DNA of 20,413 bases, taken from positions 1 to 20,413 of IMG/VR virus record IMGVR_UViG_3300005518_000044, one strand, 5' to 3'. Positions 748-20,413 of the stretch are shown piece after piece. Within the stretch, counting starts at the first letter, position 1. Every line of letters begins with the position of its first letter. The position numbers and the translations under genes were made by a program. The notes beneath the pieces are model-generated. The model was given only the letters and a program-made list of their open reading frames with translations, made no database searches and was not told the origin of the DNA. Source of the DNA: a virus.

Positions 748-759
748 GATCCAGCTCCT

Positions 760-2971: not shown

Positions 2972-2983
2972 CTCGCCGCCCTC

Positions 2984-3412: not shown

Positions 3413-3467
3413 GGATCGGTCTCCTTCGTAAGGGCGGCGCGAGGCGGCCCCGGTGAGAGCGCTCGGC

Positions 3468-4805: not shown

Positions 4806-4808
4806 GGG

Positions 4809-5612: not shown

Positions 5613-6843
5613 GTCGTCTCCTTGCGGTGGCGGGGTCGGGTGGTGGCGGCTTGTCGTCGGCCCCGCCCATGTTCAGCTGCGTCAGGAACTCGTCGAGTCC
5701 GGGCTCGCGGTTCATGTTCTCGCGCTCGCGGACCTCGTTGCGATTCATCCAGCCCGTCGTGACCGCCGTGCGGTAGCCGGCCATTCGATTGTTGAAGTCC
5801 CCCCGCAGCAGGCCGTCGAACAGGAACTCGGCGAAGACGGTGTCTTGCTCGCGCTCCGGGACCAGCTGCAGCGTGATGTCTTCTTCCCACGTCCTCGCGA
5901 TCGGCATCATCGTGTAGGTCACCATCTCGAGGCCCTGCGACTCGATGTTGCTGAACGTGGCCCGCTCGAGGTCTCCGATCCGGTGGGGCGGCACCCCGTA
6001 CATCGCCGCGATTTCCGTCCGGTTGAGCTTCCGCGACTCGAGGAATTGCGCGTCCTCGTTGGTCATCCCCGAGGCGGTGAACTTCATGCCCTCCTCGAGG
6101 AGCATCGTCTTCCATGCGTTGTCGGCGCCGGCGTACAGCGCATCGAAGTCGGCCTGGAGCCGGTCCTTCGCGGGCTTGCTCAACACCTTCGGGTGCTCGA
6201 GCACGCCGCTCAGCCGGGTGCCGTTCGAGAAGACCTTGGCGCCGAACTTCGTGAGCTGGAGTCCGGTGCCAATCACCTCGCGCATGTAGCTGATCGGGCT
6301 CAACCCCGTGAAGCCGTCGAGACTCATCCCGCGCAGGTGGAAGATCCGGCTCGCCGGCACGACCCAAGGCTCGCGGCCGTCGGGGAAGGTGATCGTGTAG
6401 GTGAGGCGCCAGAGCTCGTCCTGCTTCACCTTGACCCAGCTCGGCGGAACGGGGATTAGCTCGCGGATCTCGTCCCGCACCACCGTCTTGATCGCGTAGG
6501 CGTTGCCGTTGAGCTGGCGGTGCGCCTCCATCATCTGGCGGAAGCGGAAGCTGGTCTGCCACTGGTTGGGACGGAGGTGTAGGAGGCGCCAGAGGGGATG
6601 CGTCCTGGCCCGCTCCCGACCATCGGCGATGGTGTTGTACACCAGAAGCGGGACCTGGGCGATGCTCTGCGAGAGCACCCGAATGCAAGTATATACCGCC
6701 GCGAGGCGCATCGCCGAGTCTTCGGTGACGTGCGCCCCGGAGTCGCTGACCTGGCTCCGGAGCATCAGCTGGCGGACCTGCTCGGTCGTCAGCACCACGT
6801 CGTTGCGAATGCGCGGCTGCAGCGCGCTGCCGAGCAGACTCAC
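5599..6843 (-). CDS. phage portal protein, HK97 family
   Basis: 414 residues, the dodecameric ring at the head vertex through which DNA enters. It has the typical course of the family: AVYTCIRVLSQSIAQVPLLVY (about 50-70), PLWRLLHLRPNQWQTSFRFRQM (about 82), NGNAYAIK, the RIFHLRGMSLDGFTGLSPI block, the clamp helix around VFSNGTRLSGVLEHP, the FLESRKLNRTEIAAMYGVPPHRIG block and the ATFSNIESQGLEMVTYTMMPI block. It begins with GTG in a GTGA overlap with the small membrane-protein gene upstream. The C-terminal tail (GGADDKPPPPDPATARRRRDDT) is basic and probably disordered. Gene order TerL-portal-protease-capsid is that of HK97-type phages. Confidence 0.95.
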   Translation of the reverse strand: MSLLGSALQPRIRNDVVLTTEQVRQLMLRSQVSDSGAHVTEDSAMRLAAVYTCIRVLSQSIAQVPLLVYNTIADGRERARTHPLWRLLHLRPNQWQTSFRFRQMMEAHRQLNGNAYAIKTVVRDEIRELIPVPPSWVKVKQDELWRLTYTITFPDGREPWVVPASRIFHLRGMSLDGFTGLSPISYMREVIGTGLQLTKFGAKVFSNGTRLSGVLEHPKVLSKPAKDRLQADFDALYAGADNAWKTMLLEEGMKFTASGMTNEDAQFLESRKLNRTEIAAMYGVPPHRIGDLERATFSNIESQGLEMVTYTMMPIARTWEEDITLQLVPEREQDTVFAEFLFDGLLRGDFNNRMAGYRTAVTTGWMNRNEVRERENMNREPGLDEFLTQLNMGGADDKPPPPDPATARRRRDDT

Positions 6844-7016
6844 GAGGGACTCCCACCGTCAGGCTTTTCCAGACGGGCCACATAGACAGCAGCTGTCAAA
6901 GAGCAGAAACCGGCGGCGATCATGCCCGCCTCAAGGCACCACAACGCGGCGCCGGTGACCACGAGGGCCACCCCGACTAGGGCCAGCAGATCCGCCCAAC
7001 CGAAGCGACGTGGCAT
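6840..7016 (-). CDS. small one- or two-helix membrane protein
   Basis: About 58 residues from the ATG at 7014-7016 (a GTG at 7023-7025 would add three). A hydrophobic stretch covers residues about 8-44 (LLALVGVALVVTGAALWCLE, then GMIAAGFCSLTAAVYVA), long enough for one or two transmembrane helices, followed by a short polar tail. GGAGG lies only 2 nt before the ATG and nothing good precedes the GTG, so the start is uncertain. The stop overlaps the portal GTG by 4 nt, which argues that the gene is real and translated with the portal. Small membrane proteins at this position are known in siphovirus modules but have no settled function. Confidence 0.6.
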   Translation of the reverse strand: MPRRFGWADLLALVGVALVVTGAALWCLEAGMIAAGFCSLTAAVYVARLEKPDGGSPS

Positions 7017-7030
7017 GTCCTCCACGGGCG

Positions 7031-7076
7031 GGAAAAGAAAAGAGGCCCCTCCGGCGCGATGCCGAACGGGCCTCTT
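7031..7076 (-). terminator. Rho-independent terminator between TerL and the portal block
   Basis: Perfect 9-bp inverted repeat AAGAGGCCC (7040-7048) / GGGCCTCTT (7068-7076), with a second inner stem CGGC/GCCG (7052-7055 and 7061-7064). Read on the minus strand, the hairpin is followed at once by TTTTCTTTT (7041-7031 region). It lies about 66 nt after the TerL stop, and only about 15 nt before the start of the small membrane-protein gene. It probably ends or attenuates transcription of the packaging genes. Confidence 0.75.
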
Positions 7077-7142
7077 GGGCCTCTGCTAGCGAATTGGTGT
7101 ACGGGTGAAAAGTAGGGAGGCGGCCGCTGGAGCGCAACAGCC

Positions 7143-8858
7143 CTAGCCCAATACGGTTAGCCCGCGCTCCTCATAAATACTGATCGCCGACTCCGCCAGC
7201 TGGGCCCGGCCCATGGCCATGATCAAGGCCGTCGCCCCGTCGATCTTGAGCTCGGGCCGGTCCTTCCGCGGGTAAATGTTCTCATTGGCGTCCTCCTTCA
7301 CCACGACGTTCGAGATCATCCAGGTGAGCGCGGGATTCCCATCGTGGTGCAGTTGCCCCGACTTGACCAGAGCCTCGACCCACTTCATGGGATCCGAGAA
7401 ATGTTTCGTCGTCTGCGGCACGGCGATCGCGACGATGCCCTGCCGGCCGCACTCCTGGAGCGTCTCGGCGGCGCCCCATTCATCCAGGGCGAGCTCGGCC
7501 AGGCCGTGGTCACGCGTGTCCTGGAAGAGATCCTCGCGGATCCGGGCGAAGTCGTTCACTTCGCCGTCGGTCACGGTCAGGAAGCCATCGTGCGCCCAGC
7601 CCTGGTAGTGGCGGTTCTTGGGATCCGAAACGGTGTCGGCCGGGAGGTAGTGCCGGCTGAAGATGTAGAAGTGAGGCTTGCCGTCGGCCTCGACGCGGCG
7701 AAACACCCGGACCACGGAGGCGATATCGAGCTTGCTGGCCAGGTCACCGCCGGCGTAGCAGGGCACGTCCTTGAACGCGGAGGGGTGCAGCTTCCGATCG
7801 GCCTGCCGGTTCCACCACTCCATGTTCATCCAGGCGTTCCGCGCCGTGACCCAGATATTCAGGTGCTTGGTCTTGAAAACGTTTTGCTGCCGGCTGTGGG
7901 CGACGGCGTCACGCTGCGAGGCCTTCAGGAACTCGGCGCTCACCGACACCCCGTAGTTCGGATTCGCCTTCCTGAGCGCCCGCTCGCTCGTCCAGTTGTC
8001 GCCCTCGTCGATCGTATAGATGATGCCGAAGATCCGCTCGTTGGGCTGGGTACCGTCGAGTGCCGCAATCACTTGGGTCCGGAGCGCGTAGCAGGGGCCC
8101 TCGATGTTGTCGCCCGCGGTCGTGAGCACGTCGACCAGCGGCTGCCGGCGCGCCCCCATGCCGGTGACCATCGTGTCGTAGAGGGTGGAGTCCAGGTGCT
8201 CGTGGTACTCGTCGACAATCGCGATCGAGGGCGACGCCCCGTCCCCCGGCTTCCCGATGATCGGTTCGAACCGGGAGCCGTTGGCCACGATCGCGATATT
8301 CGAGGCACTGACCTGGACGCCGTAGTGCTCGCGGAACGCCGGCGTCCGCTCGGCCATCAACTTGGCCGGCCGGAAGACCTCCCAGGCCTGTTTCTCGGTG
8401 GTGGCGCCGCTGTAGACCTCCGCCCCGAACTCTCCGTCGGCCGACAGACCGAGCAGACCGTCGAGCGCGCCCTCCGTGCTCTTGCCATTCTTGCGGGGGA
8501 TTTCAGTGTAGGCGATTTGAAACCGGCGGAGGCCCGTCGCGCGATCGACCCAGCCGAAGATCGCGGACCGCCGGAAGCACTGCCAGTCCTGAAGCCTGAT
8601 GCGGGTGGCCCCGGGATTCCCGGGGTGCGGAATGGCCCAATGTCCCTTCACGTGCGGGAAGAGCTCGGCGAACTGGCACGCCCGCTCGGCGAGCTCGGGG
8701 TTGAACAGGTAGGGCGCGTGCTTCCCGGTCCACCGCCTCAGGTCGTTGAGGTGACGGGCGCAGGCCAGGCGGACCCATTTGCACGCGAGGATCTTCCCAC
8801 TGACAACGCCCTTGGCGTAGGCCGTGGCGCGCGCGACATGCGGATACTTCGCCGGCAT
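7143..8858 (-). CDS. terL: terminase large subunit (TerL, Terminase_1 type)
   Basis: 571 residues; the ATP-driven motor and nuclease that cuts concatemeric DNA and pumps it through the portal. ATPase part: the variant P-loop PRKNGKST at residues 121-128 (HK97/phiC31-type 'RKNGKS'), Walker B SIAIVDEYHE at 211-220 with Asp216-Glu217, and coupling motif VLTTAGD at about 244-250. RNase H-like nuclease part: acidic residues Asp372 (GGDLASKLD), Asp459 (LALDEWG) and Asp540 (KIDGATALI), the expected three metal-binding positions. Full length for the family. The ATG overlaps the TerS stop by 4 nt. The HNH endonuclease gene encoded upstream is a usual partner of this terminase type, favouring cos-type ends. 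Confidence 0.97.
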   Translation of the reverse strand: MPAKYPHVARATAYAKGVVSGKILACKWVRLACARHLNDLRRWTGKHAPYLFNPELAERACQFAELFPHVKGHWAIPHPGNPGATRIRLQDWQCFRRSAIFGWVDRATGLRRFQIAYTEIPRKNGKSTEGALDGLLGLSADGEFGAEVYSGATTEKQAWEVFRPAKLMAERTPAFREHYGVQVSASNIAIVANGSRFEPIIGKPGDGASPSIAIVDEYHEHLDSTLYDTMVTGMGARRQPLVDVLTTAGDNIEGPCYALRTQVIAALDGTQPNERIFGIIYTIDEGDNWTSERALRKANPNYGVSVSAEFLKASQRDAVAHSRQQNVFKTKHLNIWVTARNAWMNMEWWNRQADRKLHPSAFKDVPCYAGGDLASKLDIASVVRVFRRVEADGKPHFYIFSRHYLPADTVSDPKNRHYQGWAHDGFLTVTDGEVNDFARIREDLFQDTRDHGLAELALDEWGAAETLQECGRQGIVAIAVPQTTKHFSDPMKWVEALVKSGQLHHDGNPALTWMISNVVVKEDANENIYPRKDRPELKIDGATALIMAMGRAQLAESAISIYEERGLTVLG

Positions 8859-9379
8859 CAGCCGAGCTTACTGAACGGGTTCGATCCCATCCCGTCGGGG
8901 TTGGGCTGGCGCGACACTTTGCCGAGCGTGGCGGGCGAGAGGCCGAACTCAGCCAGCAGGGACTGCGCGTGCCGCGCCGCCTCCGACCGGAGCGCCACCT
9001 CCGGCCGGGCGCGCATCATCGTCTTCGTTTCCCGCTTCGGTGTGCTCTTCCCACCCTTCTTCGTCGACGCCGTTTTGGTCGTGGTGGTCTTAGACGCATA
9101 CGTATAGCCCTCGCGCTCGAGGACCTCAGTGAATTTTTCGACCTCGTGCAGTCGCATCGCCGCCAGGGCGAGCATCTCGGTGTGGGATTTTGACGCGAGC
9201 TGCTGCAGGTCGAGGCGCGTGGCGAGTGCGGCGAAGATCTCCACCGCGCGCCGCGGCAGCCACTCCGGCGCGCGCGGCGCATCGGGATCCGGCGTCGGCG
9301 CGTTAGGGTTTACGCGATCGGGCCGGATGGTACCGATGATTTTCTTTGTCGCGTCCGGAGTGCGCTTTCGTCCCTTCAC
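8858..9379 (-). CDS. terS: terminase small subunit, P27 family
   Basis: 173 residues; the DNA-recognition subunit that loads TerL on the packaging site. The N-terminus is basic (MKGRKRTPDATKKIIGTIRP) followed by PEWLPRRAVEIFAALATRL, as in the P27 family. The C-terminal ARPEVALRSEAARHAQSLLAEFGLSPATLGKV (about 124-155) is the family signature. Between them, residues about 95-120 form an unusually long Thr/Lys-rich loop (ASKTTTTKTASTKKGG onward) where most relatives have a short linker. It starts with GTG; GAGGTG lies 8 nt upstream. It is translationally coupled to TerL by an ATGA overlap. Confidence 0.93.
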   Translation of the reverse strand: MKGRKRTPDATKKIIGTIRPDRVNPNAPTPDPDAPRAPEWLPRRAVEIFAALATRLDLQQLASKSHTEMLALAAMRLHEVEKFTEVLEREGYTYASKTTTTKTASTKKGGKSTPKRETKTMMRARPEVALRSEAARHAQSLLAEFGLSPATLGKVSRQPNPDGMGSNPFSKLG

Positions 9380-9490
9380 AACGATTTCACCTCAATTCCG
9401 ACCGAACAAAAAAACGCCTGGGCGCACGGCTTCCGGACGACGATGCCAGAGATCGGACACACCCTCCCCCTGGCACGATCCTTGGCTCGG

Positions 9491-9727
9491 TCAGCCCACT
9501 ACCTGAATCGCGCTGACACGTCCGTTCTCCCCGCGCGCGATCTCCACGCGCTGCCTTGCCGTGAGAGCCTTCCACTCCTTGCCCTTCTCCTTCGTGTGCG
9601 TGGCCGAGGCAGCGAGCGAGCCCTGGGCACCTTCCATGATGGCATCACCCACACCCACCTCACTGCCTGGCTCCTCGCCCTTCACCCGGGCAACGGCTCG
9701 CGTCTTACTGGGCTTTCCTTTTGACAT
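9491..9727 (-). CDS. small basic hypothetical phage protein
   Basis: 78 residues from the ATG at 9725-9727, chosen because GGAGG lies 8 nt upstream; an earlier ATG in the same frame has no good ribosome binding site. Not recognised. The N-terminus is strongly basic and polar (MSKGKPSKTRAVARVKGEE), the middle is Gly/Ala-rich, and the C-terminus KALTARQRVEIARGENGRVS looks like a short basic helix. It overlaps the 3' end of the HNH gene by 23 nt and sits between HNH and TerS. It may act in DNA packaging by location only. Confidence 0.6.
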   Translation of the reverse strand: MSKGKPSKTRAVARVKGEEPGSEVGVGDAIMEGAQGSLAASATHTKEKGKEWKALTARQRVEIARGENGRVSAIQVVG

Positions 9728-10094
9728 TGCCGAATCCTCCATCGAAGGTTGCGGTCTTGCGATTATGGCAGCTTGACCACCATGCCCGGACATTCGCACG
9801 ATCGAGCTCGAGGTCCGGTCGTTCGCTGCGCGGGATGGTATGGTCCACCGTGTCCGACGGTTTCCCGCAGCCGCACCGGCAGTACGGTTCCTCCTTCAAC
9901 ACCTCGGCCCTGAGCGCGCGCCAGGGCTTGCTGCTGTAGAACTGTCGATCCGGGCCCTTGGCCAAGTCGGCCCGCGCGCGGCGCTGGTGCGGGCTGCCAT
10001 ACGCGGTGCGCACATGCGCGGGGCAGTAGCCGCCGCCTCGTACCGTCAGCCGGCAACCTGGTTGCCTACAAGGGCGCAGCGGAGCGCTCGGCAT
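9705..10094 (-). CDS. HNH endonuclease (packaging-associated)
   Basis: 129 residues. An N-terminal Cys/His cluster (Cys9, Cys14, Cys24, His27; CRQPGCRLTVRGGGYCPAH) precedes the HNH core: FYSSKPWRALRAEVLKEEP, then CRCGC (72-76), the catalytic TVDHTIPRSE with Asp84-His85, Asn101, and the closing CHNRKT (109-114). This matches phage HNH proteins encoded beside P27/Terminase_1 terminases, which assist TerL in cutting cos sites. The start is the ATG overlapping the preceding stop by 4 nt; a longer reading through the upstream gene is rejected. It is the last link of a chain of five genes joined by 4-nt overlaps. Confidence 0.92.
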   Translation of the reverse strand: MPSAPLRPCRQPGCRLTVRGGGYCPAHVRTAYGSPHQRRARADLAKGPDRQFYSSKPWRALRAEVLKEEPYCRCGCGKPSDTVDHTIPRSERPDLELDRANVRAWWSSCHNRKTATFDGGFGNVKRKAQ

Positions 10095-10327
10095 CAGGCG
10101 GCCTCGACCTTCAACTGGTACATGCACTTGCAATCGCAGATCCATGCGATCGTGAGCTCGCCGCCCTTGACCACGGCAAACCGCAGCAGCCGCATGCGAA
10201 CCACCGTATCCGGGCCTGGAATCCCCCAGATCTCCCGACACCTCGAGCAGCGCACACGATCGCCTGCACGGAAGGTTTCCACCTCAAAGCCGAGCGTGGC
10301 GGCGGGCATCCTCCTAGTTCTGGTCAT
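10094..10327 (-). CDS. small zinc-ribbon-like protein (fourth of four)
   Basis: 77 residues. CSRC at 27-30 and CDCKC at 64-68 give two metal-binding knuckles about 33 residues apart; between them are beta-like stretches (TVVRMRLLRFAVVKGGELTIAWI). No enzyme motif, signal or membrane segment. It shares both ends by 4-nt ATGA overlaps with its neighbours (start over the stop of the preceding small Cys-rich gene, stop over the HNH start). This is a plausible zinc ribbon that binds nucleic acid or protein; the function is unknown. Confidence 0.7.
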   Translation of the reverse strand: MTRTRRMPAATLGFEVETFRAGDRVRCSRCREIWGIPGPDTVVRMRLLRFAVVKGGELTIAWICDCKCMYQLKVEAA

Positions 10328-10551
10328 GTGGCCACCGTGGCGTCGTCAGCTCTCAGAATGTCCTTCGCGCGCGCCACGAGTAGGTCGGTGCATTCCAGGC
10401 AGACGGTCCCCACTCGCTGCTGCCGAGGCTGACCTTGAAGCACCAATCCCAGGAACGAACTGGCAGCCATATCCCGGAGGACGATGTCCAGCACTACGCA
10501 TTGCTGGTCGGTCACGTCGGCGCCGCATCGATCACAGGAGACTGTGATCAT
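10324..10551 (-). CDS. small zinc-ribbon-like protein (third of four)
   Basis: 75 residues, starting at the ATG at 10549-10551 that overlaps the upstream stop by 4 nt. CDRC at residues 7-10 and CLEC at 51-54 form the two halves of a likely zinc ribbon, separated by a hydrophobic strand-rich core (VVLDIVLRDMAASSFLGLVL). The C-terminal RAKDILRADDATV is helical. An in-frame extension upstream is possible but would overlap the preceding gene almost entirely and has no support. The function is unknown. Confidence 0.65.
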   Translation of the reverse strand: MITVSCDRCGADVTDQQCVVLDIVLRDMAASSFLGLVLQGQPRQQRVGTVCLECTDLLVARAKDILRADDATVAT

Positions 10552-10844
10552 GCAGCCGCCGCGCGGTCGAGCATTGAGGTCTCGAACCGATTGATCGCCC
10601 CGCAGCATCGAGCTCGACATTCGAAGCCCGTGATCGGGCCCCGGCGGATCCAGGCAAGACCGACGAGCTTCATACGGGTATCTCTGCTGTGGCACTTCTG
10701 GCACCGGAGTAGTACTGGCACGGCAGGTGAGAGCGGTCCGGGCTTCGGCCCGAAGAGCCCGGCCTGGTGCAGGGCGAAGAGCAGCTGCGCGAGCGGATCC
10801 GTGAGCTCGCAGCCGACCGGGGACAGGGGCTCGAGCTCGATCAC
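10548..10844 (-). CDS. small zinc-ribbon-like protein (second of four)
   Basis: 98 residues, GTG start in a 4-nt GTGA overlap with the upstream gene. The N-terminal half is a short helix and a Pro-rich stretch (ALHQAGLFGPKPGPLSP). The C-terminal half carries CQKC (48-51) and CRARCC (76-81), a spacing that fits a zinc ribbon. No catalytic motif. It resembles the neighbouring small genes in layout (two cysteine knuckles around a strand-rich core) but the sequence similarity is too low to call paralogy by eye. Confidence 0.65.
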   Translation of the reverse strand: MIELEPLSPVGCELTDPLAQLLFALHQAGLFGPKPGPLSPAVPVLLRCQKCHSRDTRMKLVGLAWIRRGPITGFECRARCCGAINRFETSMLDRAAAA

Positions 10845-11209
10845 GCGGGCTTCGCCAGGTTAGGGTGATCGGGGTCCGCGATTTCACCGCGAGAGACTTT
10901 CGAGGCGTGAGAGATCCCCCGCTTCATGATCCGCACGACCCGCTCCCATGGCTTCCGATCGAAGGCGCAGCCCAGGCAGCCGATCTCGGCCAAGATCAGG
11001 CTGAGGTTCTCAACCTGTTGTTCTGCTCGCCTCCAGATGGACGGCTCGTTGCTCGCTTGCTGGAATAAAAGGATGTTGGCGACCACGATGGCCGCTTTCC
11101 AGGGACTCGACTCCTTGATCTCCAGCTCCACGACGACGAGCTCGTGGAGGCATCGCGAGCAGAGCTGAGGGACGCGGATCGCATCCTTTGGCAGGTCGTT
11201 GGCGGTCAT
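10841..11209 (-). CDS. small Cys-rich hypothetical protein (first of four)
   Basis: 122 residues. CSRC at 17-20 and CLGC at 78-81 flank a helical core with [28 protein letters not shown] and [19 protein letters not shown], so a zinc-held helical hairpin is plausible. The C-terminal part is basic ([21 protein letters not shown]). It is the first gene of the minus-strand run; its ATG lies only about 90 nt from the junction with the comM fragment, and a small stem (CCGGA/TCCGG, 11216-11230) sits just upstream of it. No function recognised. Confidence 0.6.
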
Positions 11210-11285
11210 CGGCTGCCGGAGGCCTTCCGGTGGTGGACGCGCAGAGGTGGGAGGTTCAGCGTGCGAACGATCGGGCGGGTTTTCA

Positions 11286-11303
11286 GGTACTGGTTATCTC
11301 GCC
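11286..11303. other. junction of prophage right end with comM
   Basis: Plus-strand comM homology starts abruptly at the CTC of 11298-11300 ([10 protein letters not shown]). The codons just before it read GFSGTGY, whereas ComM normally has a basic segment ending in 'ITVN' there. The sequence to the left belongs to the phage operon. I read this as one attachment-site half (attL or attR) of the prophage. The exact crossover and core length cannot be fixed without the empty site. Confidence 0.65.
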
Positions 11304-12147
11304 CCGGCGGATGTGCGCAAGGAGGGCTCGGGGTTCGATCTGGCTGTCGCACTCGGGATTCTCGCCGCGAGCGAGCAAATCCAGGCGGCGTCGCTGGAGG
11401 GTGTCGTCGTACTGGGAGAGCTCGGGTTGCAGGGAGACCTCCGTCCGGTGCGGGGTGCCTTGCCGATGGCCATCGCCGCGCGGGCGGGGGGTGCCCGCGA
11501 GGTGATTCTTCCCGCCGTGAATATGGCCGAGGCGGCGGTGGTGGAGGGGCTGGTGGTCACCGGGGCGGATTCGCTGCTCGCGGTCACCCGGCATCTCGGT
11601 GGGCAGTGCCTCATCGCGCCCGCGGTGTCCGCTGTCTTCTGCGGTCAGGATACTGGTCCAGGTGACGGCGTCGACTTCGCGGAAGTGCGCGGCCAGCTCG
11701 CCGCCAAGCGGGCGCTCGAAGTCGCGGCGGCCGGCGCGCACAATGTTCTGTTGATTGGCCCGCCCGGGGCGGGGAAGACCATGCTCGCCCGGAGGATGCC
11801 ATCGATTTTGCCTGCCGCACCGCTCGACGAGGCGCTCGAGATCACCAAGGTGCACAGTGTCGCGGGACTATTGCCGTCGGGAACCGCTCTGATCCGACAT
11901 CGGCCGTTTCGCGCGCCGCATCACACCATCAGCGACGCGGGACTGGTGGGTGGTGGGTCCTCGCCGAAGCCGGGCGAGGTCAGCCTGGCGCACGGGGGCG
12001 TGCTCTTCCTCGACGAGCTGCCGGAATTCCATCGTCATGTGCTGGAAGTCCTGCGCCAGCCGCTGGAGGATGGGGTCGTGACACTCTCGCGGGCGGCGGC
12101 TCGGCTCACCTTCCCGGCGCGTTTCACTCTGATCGCCGCGATGAATC
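11298..12147 (+). pseudogene. comM: comM/yifB (Mg-chelatase-like AAA+ ATPase), internal fragment
   Basis: About 283 codons of ComM, the hexameric helicase that helps integrate transforming DNA by branch migration. Visible: [20 protein letters not shown] at the left end, the lid of the N-terminal Lon-S16-like domain ([19 protein letters not shown]), the P-loop [13 protein letters not shown], the conserved [19 protein letters not shown], Walker [12 protein letters not shown], and [11 protein letters not shown] at the right end. Missing are about 70 N-terminal residues and everything after AAMN (normally PCPCG, sensor 2 and the C-terminal Mg-chelatase part). The frame is intact inside, so the break is by insertion at both ends rather than by decay. 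G+C is high, as in the rest of the left half. It cannot make a working protein. Confidence 0.93.
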
Positions 12148-13689
12148 TCTGAGGGTTTGGGAACCTTTTGTTTTGTCTTTAGCCGAAGGCTTAGAATCAG
12201 AGGGCAGGTAGGCCAGTTGTATGGTTATCTCGTTGTCTGCCACAAGGATATGGTCGGTGATCCCTTCAATGATCTGACGCCGGTCTACAAACGGAAGGGA
12301 AGGCCAGCGGGAGTAGAGGTCTCGGGCTTCTGACAGGACTTCGTCTGAGGAGCGGAGCTGAAGCCTCAGGAAATCAACCTCGGCTTGGAGTCTTGGCGTC
12401 TCGTCCTGGAGCTGTCTAAGCCGCTCCTCAAGGGGAGTGTTGCGATCTGCAAACAGTTGACCCGAGATTTGATCCTTCAGATAGAGTTGGTAGAGCTTGT
12501 CCATTTCGGCTGAAACGCTGGCTTTTTCTGTTTCTAGGGAATCCAAGACTTGTTGCTTGCCGGAGAGGTTCTGGTCGGCCTGCTCCAGCGTTTCGGCCAT
12601 TTGAGTTGGGGAAAGGACAAGGCCTTTCAGTTGGTCGACAAAAACGGCCTCAAGGTCCTCCTCCCCTACGCTATTTAGGCACTCTTGGCAGACATAGCTC
12701 TTGCCGCGGGTCCTGACATACATCTTCGTTTTGCACTTGCAGACCACGATTCCTGAGAAGAGGTGCGCGCCGCCTTTGGTTGGGGCTGCACCAGGCACCT
12801 TCTGGGCTCTGAGGATCGCGTTGCAGGCCTCCCATAGATCCTCTTGGACTATTGAAGGGGCTTCGACGTAAACCCATTCTGAGGGCTTCTTGAAGGCTGA
12901 ACCACGGCCCGGGCTTTCCCGGTAGTTCATTCTCCGGATGCCCTTAGCAAGGGGATCTGCAATAAGCCGTTCGATACCGCTCGGGCGGAACTTGAAGCCC
13001 TTGCGAGTCCGGTGGCCGGCCTTAGTTAGGAGCCTTGCCACGGTCGCCTTTCGCTTGTGTTCGGCGAAAAGCTCAAAGATCAGCCGCCGAATCGGAGCTT
13101 CCTTCTCGTCTACAACGAGTTTCTGGTCTTGCCAGCGGTAGCCGAACGGGGCGGCCCCACCCAGTGTCTTTCCGAGCTTTGCTCTGATCGGAACCGAGGC
13201 GGCAACCCTCGCCGAGATTTCGGAGCGCTCCCATTCTGCCAATGCCGCCATCATCGTATAGAACATCCGGCCGGCGGGGGTGGTTGTATCTATTGATTCC
13301 TGAAGGGAGATGAGGTCTGCCCCGTGGGCTTGAAACTCGTCGGCGAAATCAAGCAACTCCCGAACATTGCGGGCGAGTCTAGCGATCTTAGAGAAAATGA
13401 TCGCAGTGATCCTGCCTGATCTTACATCAGCAAGCATCCGTTTCGCTTCGGGGTGATTACTAACCTGCTTGCCTGAGACCCCTTCAAGGCGGTAGACCGT
13501 TACGACATCCCAGCCTTTGAGTTCTGCGTAGTAGCTGGCCCGCTTCTCGTGGTGCTCGGGGCTCTCTCCCCTAGCCTGATCCTCAGTGGAAACCCTGATC
13601 CAGATGCCCACCTTACGCTTCGGCTCAGCAAGTGACTCTGTAGGCAATCGACTTTGGCGTGACGTGCGTGCCACATCGTCCTTACGCAT
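12124..13689 (-). CDS. large serine recombinase (site-specific integrase)
   Basis: 521 residues. The N-terminal resolvase domain carries [12 protein letters not shown] with catalytic Ser34, [19 protein letters not shown] (the conserved 'sRlaR' active-site arginines) and [33 protein letters not shown] (about 125-157). The Recombinase domain follows ([35 protein letters not shown]). A zinc ribbon is formed by CKCKTKM and CQEC (about 326-348), and a coiled-coil (about 370-450, rich in Leu/Glu/Gln) precedes the tail. It performs integration and excision of the right-hand element. ATG with GAGGAGGAG 5 nt upstream. The last 8-9 codons and the stop are read from antisense comM DNA, so its C-terminus in the excised circle would differ. 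G+C is clearly lower than in comM. Confidence 0.95.
12141..12156. other. junction of comM with the serine-recombinase element
   Basis: ComM identity stops within the codons ATG AAT C (12141-12147), where the family motif should continue with Pro-Cys-Pro-Cys-Gly; instead the plus-strand frame ends at once (TGA at 12150-12152). The recombinase gene begins on the other side. This is the expected layout for an attachment-site half next to a large serine recombinase. The exact crossover dinucleotide cannot be told from one junction. Confidence 0.7.
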
Positions 13690-13783: not shown

Positions 13784-16783
13784 TTACTTCTTCGATCTCT
13801 TAAGTGACCGTGAGACAACATCAGCAATTAGCTTCTGGCGGGCTTCCTTGTCCTCCTCAGAGAGTGCTCGGAACTTCACTTTGACCTTATAACCTCTGAC
13901 CTGATTGCTTGTTTCCGAAAGCGTAGCCTCTACTTCCTCCAGGAAGGCAAAGAAAGCCTCCGGAGTAAGAAATCGAAGTTTGTCCTTCGGCTGTCCCATT
14001 TCGGTTGTCATCTCCTGCTCCGCTCTGGCTAGCACTCTCTTGTCAGAGCTTACCAGCACAGCATAGTCAAAACCCGCGGCCAAGCATTTGCTGAGATTGG
14101 CAAGCTCCTTGGTCTGCGGGGTTGTGATGTGCACCTCACAGGCGATTGTCAGTTCGTCTCGTTCTAGGGCGACGTCGATGTGCCCGGCGCCATCCAGCAC
14201 CCTCTTTTCAAGGGTTACGCGGTAGCCGCGATCCTCTGCGGCACGCTTCAGTAGGGCCTGCAAGTACTTGTGTTGTGGGCCGCCCCTACCGGAAAGGACC
14301 CCTTCTGGCTTTGTCTCCTCTGGAGGTCTCCGAGCAGGTACTGCATCCGGTCGTTTAGCCGGAGGAACTATACGCGGAGCTTCGGCAGCAGGTCTTTCAG
14401 GATCAGCCTTAGCTTGAATCCCTGGGCTTGCAGCAGCCTTGGGCGATTGCGTCGTTAAGGCAGCTTCAACCTCGGCCAGTGGAGTAGCGTATCGGTTTCT
14501 GGAGCTTTCGATTGTCGCGCTTCTGGCTGCGGTAGCCGTCTGAGAGGGCTGATCCGTTACTCGAATGGTCTCTAAGTTGAAATCGAAGCTTGCGCGCTCA
14601 ACCCGTGCTATCGCCTGTCCAAGACCTAGGTTCTGAAGATCCTTTGCTTCGAATGAATGCAGACCATCCGCAAGAGCGCTGGCATCCTGTTCGCCGACAC
14701 GAAAGACGATGCGAGTGCAAGGGTTCGTTAACACAGCACTTGCAACATCCTCGCTCCTACTCTTCATCTGCCTCAAGTCCTGATGTGCCAGAGTCAGACC
14801 TACGGCATATTTCCGCACACCGGAGACTAGCTGAGCAAGGGAAGGTGTGATGAAGTTATGGAACTCATCGAGGTATACGAAGAAGGGCTTTCGAGAATGT
14901 GTATCCTGTTCCTGTCTGCTGGCAGCAGCTTGGCTAAGCCTGGCACAAAGTAGGCTCCCGAGTAGGTACGAATTTTCATCTCCGATCGCGCCCTGGGATA
15001 GCTTGGCAAGGAGGATGTTGCCTTTGTCCATGATCGAGCGGAAGTCGAGCCGATCCTGCTTTTGCGCGACCATGTAACGAATCGACTTCGGTCTTAGGAA
15101 AGCATCGAGGCGGGTAAGAAGCGGTGCTTGAGGGATTCCCTTAAGGAGGGGAAACTCCTGTTGCCAAAAATAGCGAACCTCCTGGTCCGTCACGGTTTCG
15201 AGAAAGTCCCTGCGGAAATCTGCTTCAATGAGGAACCGCCTCAGGTCTAGCAGAGTGCCGCCCCTCGTGCTCTCTAGGAAAGCCAGGATTGCATTGCCAA
15301 ACACCGCTGTCATTTGATCGCCCCAGCTCGTCGACAGCCGACGGAAAACGCCCACTAAATCAGAGGAAAGCAGTGTCTGCTCCAAGTCAGAGTGAGCCGA
15401 AAGGACATTGAATCCAACGGGGTACTCGGCATCCGAAGGATCAATCAGGGCAACGTCACCCGCCCGCCCTATAGGGATTCGGGCCAGAACATCCTCGACC
15501 AAATCCCCGTGCGGATCCAGTACGGCAACTCCGTGACCCTGATCGATATCCTGCAGGATCATGCTCAGAAGCAGATTGCTCTTGCCGGTACCGGAGGCCC
15601 CGATGACATAGGTATGGCGCAGGCGGTGCTCGGTGCTCAAAAAGACTGATCGCTGCTCATCGTCATGCTTGTTGATGCCAATTGAAGTGGAGCCTTGATG
15701 AGTTAACGCAGGAGCGGCCTTTGTGGTTGCCTGCTGCCGGACAAGGCGCTTCGAGCGGACCATTGCGGATGGCAAGTGAACAAGGGTTAGAAGCTCTGTA
15801 TTGCTCAAAATCATGCCCGAGCGATGCGACGTGCGATCGAGGATATCCTCTTCGTGTAAGGGGTCTGGATACCCTTCATTGTCTAGGGGGAAGAGATTGT
15901 TATACCCTGATTGAGTCGCGGCTAGTAGTGCGTTACCGAGAGCACGCGCCCGTTCAAACGCTGAGTCTGCGGTGGCAGAAAGGGCGGCCACGCGAATGAC
16001 ACTGGCATGAAGCGGTTGGGCAAACTTAGCCTCAACTAGTGAAAGTAAATCCTTGGCCTCGTCCACACTTGAGGCGAAGTGCCAAAGGTCTCTTCCCCAA
16101 GGCGCAATCGCAGGCTGAAATAAGACTTGAAGAAGACCAAGTTCCCCAGGCTCAAGGTCATTAAGCGCTCCGACGATGGCAATTAGCGGATCCGTCTCCA
16201 GATGACTATCCGCCTTGAGTTGGCGGTAGACAGGCTCGTAGAGGCCGAAGTCTATTAGCGTTGCGTAACGGGCCGCGCTAAACCACTGTGACGCGAGAAG
16301 ATTCTGACGATGCCGGAGCCGCACCTCAGGGAAAAAGGCACCCAAAGTGGCCTGAACTACCTGGTCGTCGGCCTCTGCATAGCTGAGTTGGACAATGATC
16401 CCCTCATGCAGTCCTAAGAGCTCGAATGAGAGTGGGGAAGAGAGGTTCTGAAAGGAAGTAAGCAATTCACGGGCAAGAGACGCCTTGACGACAAAGCCTT
16501 CGGGGAGTACAAGCTGAATCTCAAGCTGGCTTGGACTCATGCTGCGAGATGGAGCGAGTGCTTGGTCCGGGGCGGTCGGAGTCAGCTCTTGCTGCGGCTT
16601 AGTCTGCCAAGTTTGGAACAGGCCGGGCCGGCGACCATCGTCAAGACCGGCGGGATTGGTGCGGAGTCTATTTAGAAGTGGGCTATATGGAGGCTCAAGG
16701 TCTACGCGGTATGGCCAAACCCGGTAACCACGAGTACCGAGTTCCCAGTCTTCGAACAGTCCCAATTGCCCTTCCGAGAGCAC
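13784..16783 (-). CDS. HerA/TraG-like ATPase fused to PD-(D/E)XK-like domain
   Basis: 999 residues. The N-terminal ~370 residues are an element-specific domain (ASLARELLTSFQNLSSPLSFELLG and onward). The motor domain has Walker A GASGTGKS at 395-402, the VLDPHGDLVEDVL block at about 421-433 and ALIDPSDAEYPVGFNVL, and Walker B FFVYLDEFHNF at about 634-644, with AHQDLRQM as the later sensor. This is the pattern of HerA/VirD4-TraG ATPases that move DNA through membranes in conjugation-like systems. A Pro/Ala-rich linker (about 775-830) leads to a C-terminal domain with HKYLQALLKRAAEDRGY, GHIDVAL (Asp870) and TIACEVHI (Glu883), a restriction-endonuclease-like fold in which the usual catalytic Lys is His885. 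GTG start, AAGGGA about 9 nt upstream, 12 nt after the preceding gene. No transmembrane segment was seen. Confidence 0.88.
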   Translation of the reverse strand: MLSEGQLGLFEDWELGTRGYRVWPYRVDLEPPYSPLLNRLRTNPAGLDDGRRPGLFQTWQTKPQQELTPTAPDQALAPSRSMSPSQLEIQLVLPEGFVVKASLARELLTSFQNLSSPLSFELLGLHEGIIVQLSYAEADDQVVQATLGAFFPEVRLRHRQNLLASQWFSAARYATLIDFGLYEPVYRQLKADSHLETDPLIAIVGALNDLEPGELGLLQVLFQPAIAPWGRDLWHFASSVDEAKDLLSLVEAKFAQPLHASVIRVAALSATADSAFERARALGNALLAATQSGYNNLFPLDNEGYPDPLHEEDILDRTSHRSGMILSNTELLTLVHLPSAMVRSKRLVRQQATTKAAPALTHQGSTSIGINKHDDEQRSVFLSTEHRLRHTYVIGASGTGKSNLLLSMILQDIDQGHGVAVLDPHGDLVEDVLARIPIGRAGDVALIDPSDAEYPVGFNVLSAHSDLEQTLLSSDLVGVFRRLSTSWGDQMTAVFGNAILAFLESTRGGTLLDLRRFLIEADFRRDFLETVTDQEVRYFWQQEFPLLKGIPQAPLLTRLDAFLRPKSIRYMVAQKQDRLDFRSIMDKGNILLAKLSQGAIGDENSYLLGSLLCARLSQAAASRQEQDTHSRKPFFVYLDEFHNFITPSLAQLVSGVRKYAVGLTLAHQDLRQMKSRSEDVASAVLTNPCTRIVFRVGEQDASALADGLHSFEAKDLQNLGLGQAIARVERASFDFNLETIRVTDQPSQTATAARSATIESSRNRYATPLAEVEAALTTQSPKAAASPGIQAKADPERPAAEAPRIVPPAKRPDAVPARRPPEETKPEGVLSGRGGPQHKYLQALLKRAAEDRGYRVTLEKRVLDGAGHIDVALERDELTIACEVHITTPQTKELANLSKCLAAGFDYAVLVSSDKRVLARAEQEMTTEMGQPKDKLRFLTPEAFFAFLEEVEATLSETSNQVRGYKVKVKFRALSEEDKEARQKLIADVVSRSLKRSKK

Positions 16784-16795
16784 GAGAGCGTTCCC

Positions 16796-17311
16796 TTACT
16801 GGAAAAAGCCTTTCAGTATTGGTCTGCGTTCGCTTTCGGACAGGGTTGGAAGCTTCGCTGTGCTGGTTATGGCATCAACGGCTTCCATTAGTGCGCTGTG
16901 CGTGAGTTGTTGGAAGGCCTGGGCAGTATCGAGCTTGTAGTAGGTATCAACGCCAAGGGCCTTTGAAGTTAGAAGCCCTGTCACCTGTCCTAGCATTCCG
17001 CTGCCCTTCATGTCCCCAACCATCGTGTCAACCAATTTCCCCTGCGCGAATAGTCGTGCCGAAACGAAGAAGCTTTTGCCGAATGGTGCCGCGCCAACCT
17101 CATATCGCAAGTCGCCCCTCTCGATTCGCAGATACTCGCGAGAGGCGGAGAGCATACCGCCCTCCTTGAAGTGTGGCCTGGAGAACTTGACGTCGGGAAC
17201 ACCGCGGCTGCCAACGGCCTTCTCTATTGATCCGTAGAACGCGTCTACGTCTGCGTTTGCTCCGTCGAAGGTGCGAAACCACTGCGATAGGAGCTCTGTT
17301 TGCTCTGCCAT
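16796..17311 (-). CDS. hypothetical protein co-transcribed with the ATPase
   Basis: 171 residues, not recognised. No membrane segment, signal peptide or cysteine motif. The N-terminal 35 residues are helical and acidic (TELLSQWFRTFDGANADVDAFYGSIEK), then come strands (REYLRIERGDLRYEVGAAPFGKSFFVSARLF) and a C-terminal helical region with TAQAFQQLTHSALMEAVDAITS. The stop TAA lies 12 nt before the ATPase GTG, so the two are almost surely one operon and this may be a partner of the ATPase. ATG with GAGG about 4 nt upstream. Confidence 0.75.
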   Translation of the reverse strand: MAEQTELLSQWFRTFDGANADVDAFYGSIEKAVGSRGVPDVKFSRPHFKEGGMLSASREYLRIERGDLRYEVGAAPFGKSFFVSARLFAQGKLVDTMVGDMKGSGMLGQVTGLLTSKALGVDTYYKLDTAQAFQQLTHSALMEAVDAITSTAKLPTLSESERRPILKGFFQ

Positions 17312-17627
17312 GTTACCTCGAGGAAGGTATAGAGGGTCCTCACGCGGGTCTGCTCGCAGATGGCGAGTCGCCCGAAAGTGACATGAGGCAGCCAGAAGCT
17401 GCCTATTGAATCTTGATTGGTAGGGCGAGAATAGCTCTTGGATTGAATTGGGGCAACCTATGAGATCTTATAGTCCTCACAGGACCCGATTCGACACGGA
17501 GATCACAGCACAGAAGCCGTTCAGAAGAGGGCAGGCTGGCGGCTTTGATCCGCCGTTAGCAGTCACCAGTTATCCAGGTCTTCAGCCAGAGCCGAACAGC
17601 TTTGGGAACAAGCAGACCTGTCTGCTG
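17312..17627. other. gene-free interval with two hairpins
   Basis: No credible gene: short readings on either strand lack ribosome binding sites and family features. It holds a 7-bp stem AGGCAGC/GCTGCCT with a 5-nt loop (17386-17404), about 75 nt upstream of the start of the 171-residue gene on the minus strand, and the inverted repeat at 17611-17626. It probably contains the promoter of the ATPase operon, but no clear -35/-10 pair stands out. Confidence 0.5.
17611..17626 (-). terminator. inverted repeat just after the Ig-like gene, possible terminator
   Basis: AGCAGAC/GTCTGCT, a perfect 7-bp repeat with 2 nt between the arms, begins 2 nt beyond the stop codon of the secreted protein gene on the minus strand. 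It is followed by TTGTTCCC rather than a clean T-tract, so it is at best a weak terminator or an mRNA 3'-end stabiliser. Confidence 0.35.
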
Positions 17628-18863
17628 CTACGGGTGGATAATCGTCGGACCGAAGTAGTCCTGCCCGCCACGGCTTAGCATGTATGGCACGGCGTCGCGA
17701 GTAAGCTTACCCGCAAACCCAAGAAGCGCTGCAGTTGAACTCAAGGCATTCGTCATACCCGGTGCAGGTGTGGTCGGTGAACCGATCTTGAGATACTTGC
17801 AGACCGACCCACCACCAATTCCTGCTGATGACTGGGTCGAAATGCACAAGCGCACGCTGTCTCCCGGCTGACCAGTAGTTCCGAACCCCCCGGTAAGGTG
17901 TCCGGGCGAGAGAAACTGTCCGGGATTTGTAACCCCCTCGCCTGGCTCGAAGCCCACCAGCGTGCCTCGCCAGCCATTTGTGAAGTGTGCGGCAATACCA
18001 CTCGGAATGTTGGTCGAGACTGCGTCCCTTACCCACAAATGGATATTGGTGAAGGAACCTGTAGGGATAGGGTTTGGGGTGATTGAATCGAACCCCGGGG
18101 CTCGAGCTGCCAGCAGGACTGTAAAGCTGTCCGAACTAATCAGCCCGGCCACCCCTTGGGCAGTGACTCTGACCCGAACATAAGCTCCAAGAGCTGCGGT
18201 CCAGGTCTGCGGCATAGTACTGCCAGGAGCATACCCGAACGTACCGCAAGGATCACCTATGATCTCAGGAAATACTGTATTAGGCGCACCAACCGTTGTG
18301 TTGGGATTCAAATCGACGGCGCAGGAGACGGTGTTCTGGGTCGAAGATGCGATAGGGAAAGTGCTCACGAGCCAGGCGATATAGGGTGGCGGTGACATCG
18401 GTGAGACAGTGATGCTCGGAGGAAGTCTCTTAACGGTGATCCTTCCTTGCTTGGTCTGCGGGTTGCCGTCCGTACCGGAGCAGGAAAAGGTGAGGCTGGT
18501 GTCTGCGACGATCAAAATGATTGTTAGCGTCCCCGAGGTCGGTTGAATTTGGCTGTTGATTTTGAAGGAGTTGGTTATGCAGTTGGTCGCCACGTAACTG
18601 ATCTGCGCCGTGGCCTTCAGGTCAACTTCTTGCAGCTCCGGTGTGACCGTAATTACAGCCGGAAAGTGCTGCTCTTCTGGTGGCGCTGTTCCGGCGCTGC
18701 CGCAGGAGAGCAGACCCGCGCCGAGCACTGCCCTGTACAAAGGCTCCAAGATCGAGTTAGTGCTCAGTCGCCGCCCGCCAACCGCAGTTGAGCGACGTTG
18801 AGTAATTGCCACAGTCCCAGTCATGAGCCTTCGAAGCAGTCCAATCATCGAGTGCGCCCCCAC
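17628..18863 (-). CDS. secreted Ig-like repeat protein, probable lipoprotein (cargo)
   Basis: Up to 411 residues. A short hydrophobic run and lipobox AVLGAGLLSC (Cys54) followed by the linker GSAGTAPPEEQ suggest a lipoprotein; the first 40 residues are basic and may not be translated, so the true start may be later (an ATG at about residue 14, or a TTG just before YRAVLG). The mature part is Thr/Ser/Pro/Gly-rich with beta-strand patterns: AVITVTPELQEVDLKATAQISY, TLTIILIVADTSLTFSCSG, a second module with YVRVRVTAQGVAGLISSDSFTVLL, and GDSVRLCISTQSS with a paired cysteine (VCKYL). These resemble tandem Ig-like/fibronectin-like domains of surface proteins. No enzyme motif. It shares the region upstream with the divergent HTH gene. 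No specific function assigned. Confidence 0.65.
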   Translation of the reverse strand: MGAHSMIGLLRRLMTGTVAITQRRSTAVGGRRLSTNSILEPLYRAVLGAGLLSCGSAGTAPPEEQHFPAVITVTPELQEVDLKATAQISYVATNCITNSFKINSQIQPTSGTLTIILIVADTSLTFSCSGTDGNPQTKQGRITVKRLPPSITVSPMSPPPYIAWLVSTFPIASSTQNTVSCAVDLNPNTTVGAPNTVFPEIIGDPCGTFGYAPGSTMPQTWTAALGAYVRVRVTAQGVAGLISSDSFTVLLAARAPGFDSITPNPIPTGSFTNIHLWVRDAVSTNIPSGIAAHFTNGWRGTLVGFEPGEGVTNPGQFLSPGHLTGGFGTTGQPGDSVRLCISTQSSAGIGGGSVCKYLKIGSPTTPAPGMTNALSSTAALLGFAGKLTRDAVPYMLSRGGQDYFGPTIIHP

Positions 18864-18997
18864 CTAACTCATTCGAAGGACTCTTCTTGCGGGAATCGGG
18901 AGCCTACCATATGCTGCGGTGTGTACAAACGAAATTACAGCCCAGTTTTCAGCTCACTGTCTAGCCCACAAGCTATGGCCGGACCCGGCAGGCGTCA
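18864..18997. promoter_or_regulatory. divergent promoter region between the Ig-like and HTH genes
   Basis: A 134-nt region lies between two divergent genes. On the plus strand TTGCGG (18887-18892) and TATGCT (18910-18915) are 17 nt apart, a weak sigma70-like match (3/6 and 4/6). No operator palindrome stands out. Regulation of the cargo gene by the HTH protein is plausible from the arrangement alone. Confidence 0.35.
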
Positions 18998-19387
18998 ATG
19001 TCGCCTAAAGGGAGTTTCGGGCTGGCAGCTATTCGTGCATTGGTCCTGGCCCGATCAGAGCAACAGTCACTGCGGGAGGTGGCAAGGGAGATAGGGATCA
19101 GCTACACCGGACTGCGGTTCTTCCTGAAGGGAAGTAAGCCGCAGCCAGAGACCCTTCGGCGGCTAATCGCTTGGTATGGAGGCGCAAGAAGTGGTGCCAG
19201 TAGAGATATCAACCCACAAGACGTCCGAGCTGCGATTTTGCTTCTGCTCCGGCACATCCAACTGACAGCAACCCCGGCACTTCGAAAACAGCGCCTGGAA
19301 TCAATGATTCGGGCGCTTCTTGCCGAGCTTGAAACTCAGGATCGGCGTGTGGTCCTAACAGCTCTTCTAGAGCGCCAAGGCGCCTAA
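18998..19387 (+). CDS. HTH-type DNA-binding regulator
   Basis: 129 residues, the only plus-strand gene seen in the right-hand element. A Cro/CI-type helix-turn-helix fits SLREVAREIGISYTGLRFFLKGSKPQPETLRRLIAWYG (about 24-60): turn at EIGIS, recognition helix YTGLRFFLKG. The C-terminal half (VRAAILLLLRHIQ onward) is all helical and rich in Leu and Arg, possibly for dimerisation. ATG with a weak AGGCG upstream. The divergent neighbour is the secreted Ig-like gene. It may control that gene or element excision; neither can be told from sequence. Confidence 0.72.
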   Translation: MSPKGSFGLAAIRALVLARSEQQSLREVAREIGISYTGLRFFLKGSKPQPETLRRLIAWYGGARSGASRDINPQDVRAAILLLLRHIQLTATPALRKQRLESMIRALLAELETQDRRVVLTALLERQGA

Positions 19388-19555
19388 TCGGGGCAGAACC
19401 GGAAACTGTCTCCAAAGTTGCCTAGCGTTCTGGCACTTTTCTTCCTGGCGGGGATACGGCGGATGCCGGGTTAGACCCCTCTGAAGGGCGAGTAATGACA
19501 AGGGCAGGGGACCAAGCCGTTCTACACTGCGCTCGCTCCTGGAGGGCATAACTGT
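19388..19555. other. convergent gap between HTH gene and zinc-ribbon membrane gene
   Basis: 168 nt between two convergent stop codons. No gene, T-tract terminator or repeat could be supported in it. Confidence 0.4.
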
Positions 19556-19933
19556 TCAGTGTCTGCGTGATCTGCCAGGACCAGAAACAAACAACAGCCA
19601 AGCAAGAGCGATTCCTAGCCCGACCAGCATTGTAGGTAGTGTGCTACTTGGATCTGTGAGCAGCTGCCCAATGAATTGGACGAGATAGAAGAGCGTGCCA
19701 ACAAGGAGCAGCATGCCGATGATCACGCCGACAGCTGTTGCGCCGCGAGCAAAGGCGGTGGCTGCCCGGTGTGGGCTGCTTAGTTCCCTTGAGCCGCACT
19801 CAGCGCACACCGTCGCACTCACAGGGTTGCGGTGTAACTTTGGGCAGAGCCTTATTCCATAGCTCCTGCCGCATTTGCTGCAAAACAGTGGCCTTCCAGG
19901 CGTCAATCTTCGACATGAACGACAGAACTTCAT
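19556..19933 (-). CDS. double zinc-ribbon membrane protein
   Basis: 125 residues. Four cysteine knuckles occupy the N-terminal half: CRSC (4-7), CSKC (18-21), LCPKLH (Cys30, His34) and CAEC (43-46), giving two stacked zinc ribbons. Two hydrophobic helices follow (about 65-90, GVIIGMLLLVGTLFYLVQF, and about 100-117, MLVGLGIALAWLLFV), ending in a basic tail RSRRH. The zinc ribbons would face the cytoplasm if the basic tail does (positive-inside rule, two helices). The ATG overlaps the stop of the replication-relaxation-like gene by 4 nt (ATGA), so the two are translated together. The function is unknown; it could anchor a DNA-processing partner at the membrane. Confidence 0.75.
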   Translation of the reverse strand: MKFCRSCRRLTPGRPLFCSKCGRSYGIRLCPKLHRNPVSATVCAECGSRELSSPHRAATAFARGATAVGVIIGMLLLVGTLFYLVQFIGQLLTDPSSTLPTMLVGLGIALAWLLFVSGPGRSRRH

Positions 19934-20413
19934 ATGCCTCCCAAGAGCGGTAGCCGCCGCTCCCCTTCTGGTCTGAGCCAGACTGAGGCAAGAAAGCCAC
20001 CGCGGTTAATTGCTTGAGTCGTCGATATCCAAAAGATCTTTCTGGTCTGTCCGCTAATCAGCGCGCGGAGCTGAGCGAGCCGCTTATCGGAGGGAACTAC
20101 CACCAAGACACCAAAACGCTCATCGCCAAGCAGGTCGCGTAGTTCTGGGTACCTGGCAAGTGCGAGGTACTTGGCGATCTTTGCCTTCCAGATGCCAGCC
20201 CCTTCCGTTGCCCGGTCAACTTCGAGAAGGAATGTCCAGCGCTTCCCTGATGCCTCAAGGCGAATGAGTGCGTCAGGGATCACACCTGCCGGGCCAAGAG
20301 GCTCTTTTGGCCTGTCCCAGGAAAACAACCATCCCAGACCCTCCAGAGCCCGCCTCAGGGATAGGTACACTTCGCCAATGTCCAGCGAGTGGGTGATCGC
20401 TGCCTCGAAGCCC
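19930..20413 (-). CDS. replication-relaxation-like protein (partial, runs off the window)
   Basis: The reading frame is open to the right edge, so the N-terminus is missing; a GTG at 20368-20370 is probably internal because the frame upstream (HSLDIGEVYLSLRRALEGLG) matches the family's conserved 'H.l.v.d...al'. Then come the typical VIPDALIRLE ('rPDa.f.l') and WTFLLEVDRATEG ('fflElDrgTe') motifs, followed by KIAKYLALARYPELRDLLG and FGVLVVVPSDKRLAQLRALI. This family (replication-relaxation, Replic_Relax) is found on plasmids and integrative elements next to TraG/HerA-type ATPases and is thought to act on supercoiled or replicating element DNA. It is translationally coupled to the zinc-ribbon membrane gene. 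Confidence 0.75.
   Translation of the reverse strand, partial: GFEAAITHSLDIGEVYLSLRRALEGLGWLFSWDRPKEPLGPAGVIPDALIRLEASGKRWTFLLEVDRATEGAGIWKAKIAKYLALARYPELRDLLGDERFGVLVVVPSDKRLAQLRALISGQTRKIFWISTTQAINRGGFLASVWLRPEGERRLPLLGGI

Follow-up and report, generated by a model that had tools for sequence, protein, structure and literature searches.

A family of comM-targeting integrative elements with a conserved coupling-protein-like ATPase and partner gene, possibly mobilized through a helper's channel

How does an integrative element move between cells if it encodes an integrase and a large DNA-pump ATPase with no recognizable transfer channel beside them? The question is raised by the right-hand part of IMG/VR contig IMGVR_UViG_3300005518_000044, analysed here over its whole length of 20,413 bp (the window). 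An initial annotation had proposed a compact integrative element built around such an ATPase (ATPase1), which is preceded by a gene for a 171-residue protein (p171). The window has three parts: a tailed prophage from position 1 to ∼11.29 kb (64–70% GC; TerL at 7143–8858 and TerS at 8858–9379), a piece of the host gene comM (yifB) and the first ∼8 kb of an integrative element, which starts at 12150, fills the rest of the window and has ∼56% GC in a 67% GC context. The 'viral' part of the IMG/VR record is the separate tailed prophage left of comM. We give slightly better than an even chance to the reading that the right part is one end of a MOBC-type integrative mobilizable element (IME), with its own membrane-tethered coupling or pump complex and variable cargo, that is moved by the type IV channel of a helper. 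We chose this reading because an integrase, a MOBC relaxase, coupling-protein-like ATPases of its own and no channel together match a rare known kind of element.

On its left side the element is inserted precisely into comM, with the border at 12150 (Table 1). The recombinase gene abuts comM just past the codons ...AAMN or ASMN in the window and in six relatives, from Verrucomicrobiota, Acidobacteriota and Bacteroidota plus one unassigned bacterium, placing the insertion point between ...AAMN and PCPCG. The best recombinase orthologue at the same junction is 58.5% identical. The far attachment site, which the initial annotation had proposed to seek to the right, lies outside the contig here and was located in two relatives. 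In the Bacteroidota genome G019 the whole element stands on one contig, in the order comM N-part, recombinase, remainder of the element (21,789 bp in all) and comM C-part, and joining its flanks at TG gives an intact 513-codon comM reading ...ASMNPCPCG.... The gene is likewise restored in an Acidobacteriota genome (G008/L024), where each end of the element is on a contig of its own. The attP arms inferred for a relative with both ends known flank TG as an inverted repeat of 11 bp, AAAGGCAACGC / GCGTTGCCTTT, an arrangement expected of large serine integrases. Several elements have an XRE-type regulator gene at their comM-C end. The 46.6-kb element of genome G025 (L058–L060; contig C43, 37–90 kb) occupies a different comM position, between ...HHTI and LVGGG..., so the recombinase family uses at least two comM sites; some relatives are located outside comM. 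ComM is a helicase of natural transformation and, as read from the gene sequence, the insertion also disrupts it.

Two further features of this junction were observed. The recombinase frame runs through the attachment site (12124–12151), its last seven codons and stop being antisense comM, and the same overlap occurs in several relatives. The tail of the protein must therefore differ between the integrated and circular forms, a difference that could act as a switch. The prophage (1–11297) terminates within this comM as well, near codon 63, so that two unrelated elements apparently sit in one comM ∼850 bp apart. Its TerL is at most 65% identical to an IMG/VR contig and 52% identical to a Paraburkholderia phage; the closest comM in an Acidobacteriota sample is 61% identical to that of the window.

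A motor-pattern scan of 84,980 genomes for the ATPase yielded 41 loci, 39 of them in a near family (L017–L055) in which one locus, L054, may hold just the shorter ATPase described below. All near-family loci come from metagenome-assembled genomes, and the bins labelled 'Akkermansia' are probably misnamed environmental bins. The relatives span at least five phyla (Gemmatimonadota, Verrucomicrobiota, Acidobacteriota, Nitrospirota and Bacteroidota). Near-full-length ATPase1 was present in 4 of 150 sampled Gemmatimonadota genomes, the copies from this phylum being 53–55% identical to that of the window over its length. Full-length ATPase1 was not found among 72,556 plasmids or 50,697 phages, where matches span about half of it at most. 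Scans of viral contigs with ATPase1 alone and with the recombinase alone gave no matches, and a family-wide pattern scan of these contigs returned distant ATPases only. On each of two IMG/VR contigs, L009 and L010, a Replic_Relax gene occurs with a pair of TrwB-like ATPase genes, and L009 has a tyrosine integrase in addition; they are probably related mobilizable elements catalogued as viruses.

Using tblastn and clustering we found the gene order p171, ATPase1, serine recombinase in ∼30 unrelated genomes; the window genes are not chance open reading frames. Antisense frames excepted, no fourth gene family of comparable spread emerged from the near-family loci. p171 lies directly before ATPase1 in 31 of the 34 loci with enough upstream sequence, bearing out the suggestion that the two are co-conserved; the three exceptions are an ATPase1 frameshift, a fragment and one copy (G005, contig C103) lacking a detectable p171. 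Pairwise distances were correlated between ATPase1 and the recombinase (r=0.72; 0 of 2,000 permutations) and between ATPase1 and p171 (r=0.62; 0 of 2,000), and to a lesser degree between p171 and the recombinase (0.37; 2 of 2,000). The three proteins thus co-diverge. With its recombinase, exact comM insertion and conserved core, the compact integrative element first proposed holds up, and all five proteins named then (recombinase, ATPase1, p171, Replic_Relax and zinc-ribbon protein) are encoded where they were placed, on the minus strand.

An AlphaFold2 model of ATPase1 (mean predicted local distance difference test score 82) comprises an N-terminal region (residues 80–345), a TrwB/VirB4-type motor (349–755), a low-confidence linker and a C-terminal domain (836–957). 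The motor superimposes best on TrwB (Z 30.7, root-mean-square deviation (r.m.s.d.) 3.7 over 367 residues), ahead of VirB4 (Z 28.9), DndH (Z 27.8), HerA (23) and FtsK (∼18). As in type IV coupling proteins, it is RecA-like with an inserted all-alpha region, judging from the TrwB structural match and Pfam TrwB_AAD_bind; the N-terminal membrane domain of those proteins is missing, ATPase1 having no membrane helix in the window and most relatives. The best whole-chain Foldseek match is TrwK/VirB4 (VIA r.m.s.d. 10.3 over 563 residues; no Pfam VirB4 match), which hints that the N-terminal domain may be VirB4-like. The modelled tail follows the helix-strand-strand-strand-helix-strand order of the PD-(D/E)XK fold and appears nuclease-like by this order of elements, with D870 invariant, E883 nearly invariant and no lysine at the usual ExK place. 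Because the motif order looked alike by eye, we also considered whether the tail duplicates the relaxase domain of MOBC proteins, and dropped the idea at a profile–profile probability of 1.6%.

These features bear on the main alternative, in which p171 and ATPase1 form an element-stabilizing or anti-invader module: a membrane-tethered HerA-like translocase whose nuclease-like tail attacks incoming DNA or competing elements. The likeness of the motor to DndH and to defence HerAs (Z ∼20), a best PADLOC model of mad8 (70 bits), the PD-(D/E)XK-like topology of the tail with its two conserved acidic residues and the wealth of defence cargo on the elements would all fit. However, the mad8 and HerA matches span the motor only and no other genes of those systems accompany it, the motor scores highest against TrwB, and the nuclease-like domain lacks the usual lysine. 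Moreover, p171–ATPase1 behaves as backbone rather than cargo, staying constant with the integrase across phyla while the defence genes vary. We consider a defence or stabilizing role unlikely, if well short of negligible.

ATPase1 also matches an uncharacterized phage family, phrog_5156 (3e-54), which, together with the cataloguing of the contig as viral, could point to a phage or phage satellite with ATPase1 as its packaging motor. No capsid, portal or terminase was seen in the element or its complete relatives, the terminase genes of the window belong to the separate prophage left of comM, and the motor is of the coupling-protein type, so that this explanation seems very remote.

For p171 the membrane topology varies. 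Most Verrucomicrobiota, Acidobacteriota and Gemmatimonadota copies have an internal membrane hairpin, and several Flavobacteriia-type copies an N-terminal membrane helix. Fold searches gave mixed, unrelated folds (best Foldseek E 1.4e-3; VIA Z at most 8.9), from which we drew no function.

The initial annotation had recognized neither type IV channel genes nor a relaxase. The statement on the channel agrees with what complete relatives show, as described below, the window copy being cut by the contig edge; that on the relaxase does not hold, because MobC relaxases of IMEs are assigned to Replic_Relax (PF13814; PMC5357655). MOBC relaxases have a catalytic domain of the restriction-endonuclease, PD-(D/E)XK type (PMC12857230), and the 160-residue window fragment (1.1e-9) keeps the PD...ExD...K motif of full-length relatives, its N-terminal half, where MOBC relaxases have a winged helix, lying outside the contig. 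A relaxase is therefore present in the window, cut by its edge. The single large ATPase noted initially is likewise not the rule: 17 of 20 genomes have a second, coupling-protein-like TrwB-type ATPase (ATPase2) of some 400–450 residues, with a full range of 390–534, which adjoins or lies near Replic_Relax in several relatives. Beyond the core, the complete or near-complete relatives carry one of two further gene sets. The first consists of Replic_Relax and a CHC2/Toprim primase, joined in three copies from genome G005 by a replication-type helix-turn-helix protein; in the other, an additional serine recombinase is accompanied by a RepO-like and a RuvC-like protein, and parts of this set are present in the element of genome G006 (417-kb contig). 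The RuvC-like protein of elements without Replic_Relax (L077:756–1247 and relatives) is conserved, 164–171 residues long and without a Pfam match; it may be a relaxase substitute or a resolver of replication intermediates.

Among the genes of the complete G019 element, no VirB channel, capsid, portal or terminase gene was seen. Consistent with this, in a Pfam tally of this 21.8-kb relative and the 46.6-kb G025 relative, the 25 families shown out of 38 include neither a VirB nor a capsid family. When whole genomes were searched, 6 of 20 had VirB10 and 3 of 20 a MOBP relaxase, on other contigs and never on element contigs. A full VirB set next to the core, which would have made this an ordinary conjugative element, was thus looked for in the relatives and not encountered.

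Such an ordinary element, truncated where the contig stops and with VirB genes to the right of 20413, would be compatible with a window that ends inside the relaxase gene. It has a parallel in an actinobacterial plasmid (Embleya sp. NBC_00896 plasmid unnamed2), where a VirD4-like ATPase followed by Replic_Relax, as here, lies near genes for PrgI, a further ATPase and NlpC/P60; unlike the window element this plasmid has those additional genes, and the alignment of its ATPase is confined to the motor (42% of the query). Against this, the delimited 21.8-kb relative contains no channel genes and VirB10 is on no element contig. We regard a truncated conjugative element as highly unlikely.

Since the elements have no transfer channel of their own, they probably travel via the channels of other elements, and helper-dependent mobilization, one of the modes first suggested, is the best-supported one. 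On the other suggestion, transfer of double-stranded DNA, the evidence points neither way; it has its counterpart in a self-sufficient minimal system in which ATPase1 and p171, with or without ATPase2, would move the element, perhaps as double-stranded DNA, without a type IV channel. TraB of Streptomyces provides transfer of this sort. Because p171–ATPase1 is the sole part besides the integrase in nearly every relative, with relaxase and ATPase2 not universal, such a machine has to be weighed, and the lack of VirB10 in most relative genomes would fit it. However, most of the hosts are diderms, in which we know of no channel-free transfer of the TraB kind, and a p171 copy has at most two membrane helices, often one, that of the window lacking any. 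We consider self-sufficient transfer distinctly unlikely, and see only a small chance that p171–ATPase1 is an undescribed minimal DNA-translocation machine that moves a widespread family of comM-targeting elements between diderms without any type IV channel, with relaxase and ATPase2 optional.

Several observations count against the helper-dependent IME we favour. The window relaxase is incomplete at the contig edge, and only 9 of 26 relative genomes have a Replic_Relax match; relatives without it carry the second serine recombinase and the RepO-like and RuvC-like proteins instead. Neither ATPase2 nor Replic_Relax was found in the well-assembled G006, so these two are not universal. No origin of transfer (oriT) was identified, short inverted repeats near the relaxase fragment being too weak to call. 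The window p171 and a few others have no membrane helix. Finally, most relative genomes are without any VirB10, and the helper must hence be transient.

On the IME reading, the large serine recombinase would insert the circular element into comM at the NP/CPCG codons by a 2-bp TG crossover, as the junction sequences indicate, and could in principle excise it again. After excision, Replic_Relax, going by its family, would nick the element's oriT. ATPase1, a motor without a membrane domain, may be tethered at the inner membrane by p171; as the window p171 has no membrane helices, another anchor would be needed here, for example the zinc-ribbon membrane protein, which is possibly such a membrane partner or possibly cargo. 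ATPase1 and, in most relatives, ATPase2 would then pass the DNA on to the channel that a helper conjugative element provides. The remaining genes would be variable cargo.

This cargo is rich in anti-phage genes in the relatives. In the G019 and G025 elements it includes HamA, a ThsB-type TIR protein, a caspase, PRTase-CE with NADAR, a C5 DNA methylase and restriction proteins. In G006, a SIR2-like gene adjoins a HerA-like gene near or in the element (L179–L181; contig C1, 392–395 kb), probably a SIR2–HerA defence pair. One Verrucomicrobiota bin, G005, holds three related elements with differing cargo (L061–L067; contigs C138, C51 and C103), that on C51 apparently with a radical SAM/ABC-transporter cluster. 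The window itself encodes a secreted or lipoprotein-like protein that is probably cargo; this gene and the comM insertion had been missed in the initial annotation.

Table 1. Features of the comM piece and the element end in the window.
Feature	Position	Strand	Evidence
comM/yifB internal fragment (YifB-family Mg-chelatase-like AAA ATPase), host gene	11298..12149	+	Pfam Mg_chelatase 1.5e-72, ChlI 1.1e-23; interrupted by the insertion just past ...LIAAMN
Inferred attachment-site core dinucleotide TG at one element/comM junction (other junction outside contig)	12150..12151		Alignment with complete elements whose two ends have exactly TG in common
Large serine recombinase (integrase), 521 aa	12124..13689	-	Pfam Resolvase 2.9e-32, Recombinase 3.2e-14; PHROG integrase 1e-104
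ATPase1, 999 aa	13784..16783	-	TrwB_AAD_bind 2.2e-10, TraG-D_C 1.5e-6, DUF87 4.5e-5
p171, 171 aa, directly upstream of ATPase1	16796..17311	-	No family match; conserved in relatives
Secreted/lipoprotein-like protein, 411 aa, probably cargo	17628..18863	-	No family match; no cross-element cluster
Small helix-turn-helix protein, possible regulator	18998..19387	+	Weak HTH_3 match, E 0.001, under curated cut-off
Double-zinc-ribbon protein, 125 aa, two predicted membrane helices	19556..19933	-	DZR 1.9e-4, under curated cut-off; helices read by eye
Replic_Relax (PF13814) protein, MOBC-type relaxase, C-terminal half	19930..20412	-	Pfam 1.1e-9; PD...ExD...K motif; 5' end lost at contig edge

Singly, the integrases, a MOBC relaxase with its own coupling protein and insertion into comM are already known. 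The few mobilizable elements with their own VirD4 coupling protein, both IMEs and plasmids, also carry a MobC relaxase, and this coupling protein is thought to replace that of the helper (PMC5704250). Two streptococcal IMEs and the mobilizable plasmid CloDF13 resemble the window element in having a MOBC-family relaxase, a coupling-protein-like ATPase of their own and no type IV channel, the IMEs also an integrase. In contrast, the family described here occurs in other phyla, mostly has two ATPases and targets comM, and its ATPase1 differs in the large N-terminal region, the nuclease-like C-terminal domain and the conserved partner p171. In pIP501, the type IV coupling protein TraJ has no membrane domain and may depend on TraI as its partner in the membrane (PMC7431656). 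The likeness to p171–ATPase1 is one of layout, a motor without membrane helices adjoining the gene of a small membrane protein in most relatives, whereas the window p171 has no helices. The defence ATPases HerA, DndH and mad8 belong to the same motor superfamily, but matching partner genes are absent here and the full-length architecture is not shared. In Acinetobacter, islands that often carry defence genes inactivate comM and lower transformation (PMC11472951). AbaR and other comM elements of that genus are likewise mobile islands, some with defence genes; AbaR is carried by a Tn7-like element, in contrast to the large serine recombinase, exact codon site and other phyla found here. Searches of an open-access library gave no description of the p171–ATPase1 module, of its link to a comM integrase or of its occurrence in five or more phyla, which does not prove that none exists.

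These results define a family of cargo islands in five phyla where few mobilizable elements have been described. With the insertion site, borders and core genes given, it becomes possible to count the elements and trace their limits in any genome. As defence-gene islands that break comM by way of a recombinase, they add an independent case relevant to the proposal that such islands protect themselves from removal by natural transformation. The conserved pump-plus-partner module at their core has a role, in transfer or in defence, that is directly testable.

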